Part shown: positions 29,922 through 30,506 of the stretch, one piece after another
Layout: the number at the start of each line of letters is the position of its first letter
How positions within the stretch are numbered: position 1 is the first letter of the stretch
From: Hymenobacter gelipurpurascens
GTDB taxonomy: Bacteria; Bacteroidota; Bacteroidia; Cytophagales; Hymenobacteraceae
Direction: 5' to 3'
Assembly (NCBI RefSeq): GCF_900187375.1
Contig: NZ_FYEW01000002.1
Location: 744,001-808,000 of the forward strand
DNA length: 64,000 nucleotides
Position numbers and translations under genes: made by a program
The notes under the pieces: model-generated
Seen by the model: only the letters and a program-made list of their open reading frames with translations
Databases searched by the model: none
What the model was told of the DNA's origin: nothing

Positions 29922-29951
29922 TTGCAGATATCAAATCCGGCTATACATTTG
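29922..29951 (+). promoter_or_regulatory. Promoter of the methionine operon
   Basis: Minus-33 TTG (29922-29924), 19 bases, minus-7 TACATTTG (29944-29951): an exact match to the Bacteroidota pattern. Transcription should start near 29957, about 45 bases before the riboswitch. Confidence 0.7.
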
Positions 29952-30002
29952 CAACACCAACACGGTACTCCTCTGCTCGCGGCAGAGTAGTTTTCATAGG
30001 AT

Positions 30003-30110
30003 TTATACAGAAGCGGCGAGAGAACAGGCTCCCTGACCCGCTGGCAACCTTCGACCGCGCGAAAGGTGCCAATTCCTGCCCGACCAAGCTTTTGCTGGCG
30101 GGGCATATAA
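30003..30110 (+). ncRNA. SAM riboswitch (SAM-I/S-box type)
   Basis: The segment GGCTCCCTGACCCGCTGGCAACC followed, after a small stem, by AAAGGTGCCAATTCCTGCCC matches the conserved core of the SAM-I aptamer, including the GCAACC and GGTGCCAATTCC joining regions. TTATA at 30003-30007 can pair with TATAA at 30106-30110 as the closing helix. It sits between a promoter and the gene for O-acetylhomoserine sulfhydrylase, the expected place. A standard terminator is not obvious at its 3' side; instead a short Cys-rich reading frame begins 12 bases later. Expected effect: SAM binding lowers expression of metY, metX and hom. Confidence 0.8.
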
Positions 30111-30121
30111 CTCAGAGTGCC

Positions 30122-30286
30122 ATGGAAAACACCCCCGCTTTCGCCCGTTTGACCTCATCCGCCCCGGCTGCCTTGCTGCACGCCGCCTCGCCGATGGGTT
30201 TCTGTGTTGCTCCCGCCGTTTCGGTGGCCGCTCCCGTTGCTGCGCGAATGCGCTGCTGTTGCAGCGCCTGTTGTTGCTGTAGCTAA
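30122..30286 (+). CDS. Cysteine-rich leader peptide, putative attenuator
   Basis: A 54-codon frame from ATG 30122, in the leader between the SAM riboswitch and metY. The first 42 codons are Ala/Pro/Ser-rich and unremarkable. The last eleven residues are RCCCSACCCCS: seven cysteine codons in a ten-codon stretch just before the stop. This is the hallmark of a leader peptide whose translation slows when Cys-tRNA is short. The first cysteine codons lie in a hairpin (GCGCTG 30250-30255 with CAGCGC 30262-30267). ACCGCCC at 30286-30292, overlapping the stop codon, could pair with GGGCGGT at 30418-30424, a sequence that can instead pair with ACCGCC at 30396-30401. The alternative pairings are my inference. 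Cysteine attenuation is known in actinobacteria; I know of no described case here. Confidence 0.6.
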   Translation: MENTPAFARLTSSAPAALLHAASPMGFCVAPAVSVAAPVAARMRCCCSACCCCS

Positions 30287-30395
30287 CCGCCCGTAGGCCG
30301 GTTTCTCCGCACAACTCCCCTCCCCCTCTTCCTGGTTCTGCCCTCAGAGTGTTTGTGCCATCTAGGCCACTCTCAACAGGCCCCATCGCATCCTA

Positions 30396-30424
30396 ACCGC
30401 CACTTTTAGCCGGTTTTGGGCGGT
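30396..30424 (+). promoter_or_regulatory. Leader hairpin ahead of metY
   Basis: ACCGCC (30396-30401) can pair with GGCGGT (30419-30424), 83 bases before the metY start. The right arm can alternatively pair with 30286-30292 at the leader-peptide stop codon. No T run follows, so it would act other than as a standard terminator. Confidence 0.4.
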
Positions 30425-30506
30425 CTGCGCTACGTCTCATCGTGACCTCAACTCCCCTTCCAGACTTCTATCCTTCTTCCGATAACTCCTTACTGACCAG
30501 ATCGTC

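Follow-up and report, generated by a model that had tools for sequence, protein, structure and literature searches.

A SAM-I riboswitch joined to a cysteine-run leader peptide ahead of metY in Hymenobacter and other Bacteroidota: a candidate two-input control of sulfur genes

The window analysed here, a 64-kb stretch of the Hymenobacter gelipurpurascens genome, carries on its forward (+) strand a compact leader ahead of metY and two further genes, with the following features.

29922..29951, + strand: putative promoter, TTG-N19-TAnnTTTG (sequence match)
30000..30113, + strand: SAM-I (S-box) riboswitch aptamer (RF00162, 68.1 bits, model positions 1-108 of 108)
30106..30113, + strand: 3′ strand of aptamer helix P1, TATAACTC (cmscan alignment and sequence)
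30122..30286, + strand: leader peptide ORF, 54 codons plus TAA, ending RCCCSACCCCS at the stop (sequence)
30254..30280, + strand: run of seven Cys codons, TGC TGT TGC (AGC GCC) TGT TGT TGC TGT
30287..30506, + strand: spacer to metY, C-rich and G-poor (composition and folding against shuffles)
30507..31895, + strand: metY, O-acetylhomoserine sulfhydrylase-type PLP enzyme, the regulated gene (PF01053, E 8.2e-140)
32216..33253, + strand: metX-like alpha/beta hydrolase, 3′ of metY (PF00561 only)
33192..34520, + strand: homoserine dehydrogenase ORF (PF00742)

A sequence-only reading of this DNA had proposed the promoter, the aptamer, the 54-codon frame and the downstream metY, and all four were recovered at these positions. 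The covariance-model scan (cmscan) found RF00162 as a full aptamer, with 68.1 bits against a gathering score of 44.4 (E 9.4e-14); this was the only Rfam match at gathering level in the window, and no T-box RNA reached the gathering score anywhere in the 64 kb. The leader ORF begins at ATG 30122, eight bases 3′ of P1, ends with TAA at 30284-30286 and reads MENTPAFARLTSSAPAALLHAASPMGFCVAPAVSVAAPVAARMRCCCSACCCCS (leader peptides are written here up to their stop codons). The window has a single instance of the codon pattern CCC-x2-CCC, this one, against 0 in 100 shuffles. A leaderless start of the mycobacterial type does not apply, because the aptamer lies 5′ of the ATG. Searches for leader peptide families gave 0 NCBIfam matches for four peptides and 0 Pfam matches for the window peptide. 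The metY translation contains no Cys. We infer the name metX for the hydrolase from its context, and the true start of the homoserine dehydrogenase probably lies inside the listed frame. TAnnTTTG is described as the flavobacterial sigma-A element (PMC9723704); the full promoter pattern has six matches on both strands of the window against ∼1.6 expected per strand, and the match alone is therefore weak evidence for a promoter. By eye, a small hairpin is visible between promoter and aptamer in Hymenobacter metY leaders (29971-29985 in the window; at the same place in L138, L143, L151, L154, L158, L163 and L168), with apparent compensatory changes (CTGC/GCAG, CCCGC/GTGGG, CTCGT/ACGAG) in 8 of the 8 rows shown and AGTTTT following in most of them.

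The same arrangement recurs within the genome, where four of five SAM-I aptamers are followed by a Cys-run frame: those of metY, cysH-cysD (leader ending MTGACCCC), an amino-acid permease (CCSGACCCC) and an ATP-grasp gene (CVCMGCCC), the metH aptamer being the one without it. The permease, the RimK-like ATP-grasp protein and the PAPS reductase were named by domain match, cysD and metH by eye. RF00162 was present in all 41 sampled genomes of the genus. From the genus we assembled 75 loci, best-scoring and hand-picked rather than random, and classed them by similarity to the H. gelipurpurascens genes; seven of the 144 loci fetched had been dropped where a regular expression missed the aptamer core (L144 was put back). 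A Cys-cluster ORF just 3′ of P1 was found at 11/11 permease, 9/9 ATP-grasp, 11/11 cysH and 8/8 metY loci, that is, at 39 of 39 loci against ∼1.2 expected from shuffles, and at none of 33 loci of the other classes (0/14 metH, 0/11 MetB-like, 0/8 other; the MetB-like proteins are 35-39% identical to MetY). Of these 33 negatives 31 are informative, one metH row and one 'other' row being uninformative, since L164 was mis-oriented and L153 had no P1 found and both were counted as 'no'; read by hand, L164 ends in ACCSIMRSSVCMQMRAMSC, with only two adjacent Cys. Three further short-aptamer loci of unassigned class had a Cys-cluster ORF in one case. The start codon lies 8-11 nt from the P1 end, as defined slightly differently for this set, in all 39 positive leaders and is GTG in 30 of them.

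Short-type SAM-I aptamers in the genus (L051, L141, L144, L164) mostly precede weaker Cys leaders, such as HGCCIMLRPVVCMPILGMSC; a Cys cluster as defined here occurs at L051 and not at L141, L144 or, by hand, L164, where a TonB-receptor-like frame seems to come next downstream by eye. Four genus aptamers without a Cys frame (L040, L044, L045, L057; two cysteine-synthase-like and two homoserine-dehydrogenase-like by eye) are followed by a hairpin and T-run, also by eye, and the genus therefore seems to employ two designs of SAM-I leader.

Beyond the genus, a scan of GTDB contigs with a MetY alignment supplied 80 titled loci, the best 80 of 593. RF00162 was found in 58 of the 80 and lay ≤650 nt upstream of metY in 55, the three more distant aptamers (>650 nt) being left out of this count. 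An ORF that starts -12 to +25 nt of P1 and has three or more Cys among its last 12 residues was present in 30 of these 55 loci, against 0.32 expected from shuffles. Four loci added by hand, Bernardetia (in which the Rfam P1 end falls too early) and three with a distant Cys leader, bring the count to 34. Positive records come from Hymenobacter, Pontibacter, Cyclobacteriaceae, Thermonema, Mucilaginibacter, Pedobacter, two Sphingobacterium, Haliscomenobacter, Lewinella, Saprospiraceae and Flavobacteriia, and the 21 loci that were not positive include three Algoriphagus, Spirosoma, Cyclobacterium, Dyadobacter, Weeksella and two other Sphingobacterium. Several of the negatives still have an ORF in this position, containing one or two Cys. 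A deeper sample took the 30 best-scoring metY loci from 61, 61 and 60 genomes of three genera, namely Hymenobacter, the G139 genus and the G120 genus (by sequence Mucilaginibacter-like and Pedobacter-like, respectively), and contained the Cys-run leader in 30/30, 30/30 and 29/30, or 89 of 90. The expectation that relatives would conserve the Cys frame is thus borne out in these genera and in the four gene classes of Hymenobacter, and fails as a universal rule for the phylum (34/55). We regard it as practically certain that the combination of aptamer and Cys leader is real and conserved.

The Cys run sits at the very end of the leader, with 55 of 60 Hymenobacter and Mucilaginibacter-like leaders having Cys as the last residue, and the Hymenobacter leaders use both codons (TGT 116, TGC 93). 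Among closely related pairs, synonymous single-base changes at Cys codons numbered 47, 62 and 60 against 24.6, 17.7 and 18.3 expected (Hymenobacter, G139 and G120 genera), alongside 107, 61 and 74 non-synonymous single changes; at the other leader codons the synonymous counts were 370 against 262.8, 120 against 114.1 and 504 against 438.6. Synonymous changes thus exceed expectation 1.9- to 3.5-fold at Cys codons, compared with 1.05- to 1.4-fold in the rest of the leader, figures that we read as trends without p-values because the pairs share ancestry and are not independent. Judged from the sequences, the Cys codons are held more than the rest of the leader, which is the pattern of an attenuator leader and is expected of control codons. 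Indels in noisy pairwise alignments gave no clean frame signal, most leader indel lengths not being multiples of three (multiples of three: 277/668 Hymenobacter, 169/519 Mucilaginibacter-like, 52/203 Pedobacter-like; rarer after the leader, at 337/1414, 157/871 and 256/1281); given this noise, indels were dropped as a frame test. The metY ORFs of the 89 positive loci contain one Cys codon in total (430 codons read in each) and the enzyme could therefore be made during cysteine shortage, a point that is suggestive only. We consider it likely that the leader peptide senses cysteine through its Cys codons.

Several relatives depart from this arrangement. At three metY loci that are probably from Flavobacteriaceae (L186-L188; genomes G124, G065 and G061), Met/Cys leaders occur with no RF00162 match just upstream. 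L186 has two such leaders in tandem within 1050-1500, MRTIMCMMCKMMWNIPQR and then MKNNNKMCCMMMMCMCAPP, each followed by a textbook intrinsic terminator (1238-1267 and 1401-1433; 0.0 expected). The Met codons of these loci seem to take the role that the SAM aptamer has at other loci, and the tandem leaders and terminators of L186 would represent the same control in classical attenuator form. The three distant-leader loci (L281, L307, L249) have Cys leaders ending, for example, in SCCCCMP; a short hairpin lies over the leader stop codon right after the Cys run, with the sequence GTATGCC-NNNN-GGCATAC in L307 and L249. At another metY locus (L184, genome G166) the Cys-run leader MKQPANIFIYNSVTSLGTDCCCGWR precedes metY, and the RF00162 match of the genome, ∼1.6 kb further upstream, probably serves another gene. 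A leader containing MMQMCMMMCCCMRG lies ahead of metY in a Candidatus Kapaibacterium locus with no aptamer (L302).

Met codons also appear beside or in place of Cys codons in aptamer-bearing loci. Many Hymenobacter metY leaders have RMRM or RMR 5′ of their Cys run. Leaders after P1 in Sphingobacterium and Weeksella (L254, L253, L275) have RMR or MSMRMRMHMH endings with one Cys, and Met and Arg codons may take over from Cys there. L208 (1501-1952; L103 and L112 are similar) contains a SAM-I aptamer, a small ORF whose product, MKKPDEQKLKISTVPNCKTIRMCMELCCSS, includes an RMCM motif, and then what is by eye a SusC/TonB-receptor-like protein; this type of locus is perhaps a regulated sulfur or methionine importer.

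The joint between aptamer and leader is tight. In the phylum-wide set of 30 leaders, 4-15 nt (median 8) separate the Rfam P1 end from the start codon 3′ of it, and positions -13 and -12 both fall inside the 8-nt P1 3′ strand in 26 of 30. The window leader follows this rule: its P1 3′ strand spans -16 to -9 relative to the ATG and contains A-13 and A-12. Bacteroidetes mRNAs are described as lacking Shine-Dalgarno sequences, and in Flavobacterium johnsoniae A-12 and A-13 are reported to stimulate initiation (PMC6847099). The frequencies of A at -13/-12 were 0.53/0.60 in the 30 phylum-wide leaders, 0.43/0.57 in Hymenobacter metY leaders and 0.13/0.93 and 0.21/0.90 in the other two genera, and the GTG leaders at permease, cysH and ATP-grasp loci had A at -14 to -11 in 30/30. 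A ribosome-binding site within the P1 3′ strand of a SAM-I riboswitch is a known arrangement, as presented in PMC2258182. Extension of P1 toward the start codon gained little over foreign flanks (mean -6.6 versus -5.4 kcal/mol), and the leader's own flank ranked in the top three in 5 of 30 cases; the ligand-free minimum-energy fold of the window aptamer lacks P1, which is compatible with either view. From the position of the P1 3′ strand over the initiation positions, together with the effect of A-12 and A-13, we infer that SAM probably gates leader initiation via P1. Pedobacter-like leaders (L371-L400) have C rather than A at -3 in 24 of 29, A-3 being described as the favoured base at the start (PMC6847099).

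The region between leader and metY had been described as 220 bases of structured leader, a description that is not supported: the window spacer (30288-30506) is no more stably folded than its dinucleotide shuffles (z +0.32), and the first 90 nt 3′ of the leader stop average z -0.27 in the 30 Hymenobacter metY leaders. The corresponding mean in the G139 genus is -2.86 (strongly folded). The window spacer is rich in C (0.40; G 0.18), with the greatest excess of C over G in the 78 nt at 30310-30387, and mean C/G ratios across the leader sets are 1.5-1.9. No intrinsic terminator was found in the window spacer, and terminator-like sites with loops of 3-8 nt followed the leaders in 2/34, 9/30, 1/30 and 0/29 loci against 1.1, 6.2, 1.1 and 1.4 in shuffles. 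With terminators at about shuffle level, these leaders do not clearly show the intrinsic terminator that a classical trp-type attenuator pairs with a competing antiterminator. The + strand of 29700-30720 contains four terminator-like sites against 1.2 expected on both strands. Two of them overlie the hairpin upstream of the aptamer (29971-29990). The two over the Cys codons (30250-30267) were rejected as terminators, as they are followed by CTGTTGTTGC and not by a proper T-run.

Folding after the leader is lineage-specific. For Pedobacter-like leaders, a structure drawn on the alignment has 92.8% of cells paired, compared with 31-43% for the same structure slid along it, and shows 27 both-sided changes against 6.1 in shuffles; these fall in a hairpin over the Cys run (4/12 pairs) and, of the two hairpins 3′ of the stop codon, in the second (4/5 pairs), the first showing none. 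RNAalifold found no consensus in the G139-genus set (0.0 kcal), and a stem search did not separate real from shuffled sequences (28/30 versus 21.9, 29/29 versus 27.4 and 11/30 versus 20.0). Because of this lineage-specific folding, the output step may differ between lineages.

The reading that we lean towards is a nested leader, in which a SAM-I riboswitch and a cysteine attenuator form one unit that turns the genes on only if both signals are low. When SAM is high, P1 would be stabilised and its 3′ strand, covering -13/-12 of the leader, sequestered, so that the leader would stay untranslated and the gene off. When SAM is low, P1 would open and the leader would be translated. A ribosome supplied with plentiful charged tRNA-Cys would then reach the stop codon and leave, with the gene staying low, and one short of charged tRNA-Cys would stall in the Cys run and keep expression on. 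Rather than an intrinsic terminator, the output would probably use Rho, terminating transcription in the C-rich spacer, or an altered structure or stability of the mRNA; Rho-dependent termination taken by itself is a tentative candidate. From the SAM and charged tRNA-Cys steps the gate would therefore be 'not SAM and not Cys-tRNA', with SAM deciding if the Cys sensor is read. The sequence-only reading had proposed that SAM and charged tRNA-Cys are integrated, which the aptamer match, the conserved Cys frame and the Cys-codon synonymous excess support, and that the two are read one after the other; the arrangement is probably nested and not just serial, the P1 strand lying in the initiation region. 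We give slightly better than even weight to the fuller claim that P1 doubles as the initiation region of a Cys-sensing leader in a phylum-wide, riboswitch-licensed attenuator that has spread to several sulfur operons within each genome (metY, cysH-cysD, permease, ATP-grasp), with Met codons joining or replacing Cys in some lineages.

The tight spacing at P1 and the lack of a clear terminator between leader and gene in the main type of locus bear on another possibility, that the aptamer acts alone on the transcript and that the Cys leader, a second and independent attenuator, is found downstream of it by coincidence. Independent action needs no start codon 4-15 nt after P1, and we consider this possibility unlikely, even though the distant-leader loci resemble it (in L281 and L307, both Chitinophagaceae MAGs, and L249, a Bacteroidota MAG, the aptamer has its own hairpin and T-run by eye and the Cys leader follows several hundred nt on) and 6 of 25 MetY loci without a nearby aptamer have leaders under a looser Cys/Met definition, against 0.86 expected. 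Alternatively, leader translation might be needed for, or prevent, metY translation, with no transcription attenuation. Translation of the B12-riboswitch uORF ahead of mycobacterial ppe2 is described as required for PPE2, mainly through termination-reinitiation (PMC11260477), and intrinsic terminators after the leaders here are not clearly above shuffles. The stop codon, however, lies 88-269 nt from metY in the 34 loci, which is far for re-initiation, and such coupling leaves the Cys run unexplained; we judge it somewhat unlikely.

Two further explanations concern the peptide and its origin. Cys clusters bind metals, and the Cys-rich nascent chain might sense metal or redox state, or the product might be a functional small protein, rather than a sensor of tRNA-Cys. 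A copper-responsive uORF has been described (PMC9426467), but here the regulated genes include methionine and sulfate-assimilation genes, the spacing among Cys residues varies, the runs lie at the stop codon (Cys being the last residue in the 55 of 60 leaders noted above), and some lineages mix Met codons with Cys or replace Cys, all of which make this explanation improbable. That RNA structure or base composition produced the frame incidentally could be argued from the covarying hairpin that includes the Cys run in Pedobacter-like leaders and from the 161 TGY-TGY-TGY-TRR strings in the H. gelipurpurascens genome (TGG endings included). The shuffles (0.32 of 55 loci against 30 observed), the use of both TGT and TGC and the sister aptamers without a frame (0/33) make it very hard to credit.

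If the nested reading is correct, these leaders are a natural two-input RNA gate that combines a metabolite riboswitch with a sensor of tRNA charging, nested rather than built of stacked aptamers, and it would span much of a phylum whose mRNAs are described as lacking Shine-Dalgarno sequences (PMC6847099). It makes testable how a riboswitch controls initiation without a Shine-Dalgarno sequence, how sulfur assimilation is controlled in Bacteroidota and how a Cys run alters expression without an intrinsic terminator. Small leader ORFs are easily missed: with one Pedobacter-like leader as query, at least three predicted proteins were matched among ∼5.8 billion, called hypothetical or 'Natural product', and the three are a lower bound because the protein search needs shared exact words. 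Among the matches listed for the open-licence literature (subscription work and preprints lying outside), we found no title or abstract describing a combination of SAM riboswitch and Cys leader. For flavobacteria, attenuation of amino-acid operons by leader peptides is noted, with no Cys/SAM pairs mentioned in the passage cited (PMC9723704), and Bacteroides thetaiotaomicron is suspected to have leader-like sORFs (PMC7366714).

The leaders here resemble the polycysteine leaders of Actinobacteria in being short ORFs ahead of sulfur genes with a Cys run at the end, near the stop, and in having Cys conserved as an amino acid (synonymous excess in all three genera, in pairs that are not independent and that also show non-synonymous changes). 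Polycysteine leader peptides of mycobacteria and Actinobacteria were reportedly the subject of work by Canestrari in 2020. Cys leaders without obvious terminators are described in mycobacteria and other Actinobacteria (PMC1262725); in the published passages used here these share with ours the absence of a conserved terminator hairpin and a suspicion of Rho, and unlike ours the mycobacterial ones are called leaderless, are mentioned without a riboswitch and belong to another phylum. The cysS uORFC-8-2 motif of Rhodobacterales likewise has conserved Cys codons in a uORF, two in that case, and presumed ribosome stalling, but it is described as an attenuator with an intrinsic terminator and, in the passage cited, without mention of a riboswitch (PMC8632094). 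Riboswitches that gate translation of a short upstream ORF are described in M. tuberculosis, namely Mbox/pe20 with Rho termination (PMC12810186) and B12/ppe2 (PMC11260477); these respond to other ligands, and in the cited passages their uORFs are not presented as amino-acid sensors. In Sinorhizobium meliloti metA, too, a SAM riboswitch sequesters an initiation signal for a start codon further downstream, but it is of the SAM-II type and no Cys leader is mentioned in the passage cited (PMC9373788). Comparable in logic are the SAM-I/T-box(Met) tandems ahead of metX and metY, of which a review presents two predicted examples as predicted 'NOT A AND B' gates (PMC9481103). They share with the Bacteroidota leaders a SAM-I riboswitch paired with an amino-acid/tRNA sensor, the same targets and the same predicted logic. 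They differ in that a T-box RNA reads tRNA-Met directly, whereas here, in a window with no gathering-level T-box, the sensor would be a translated peptide of Cys codons whose initiation region contains the aptamer helix itself.
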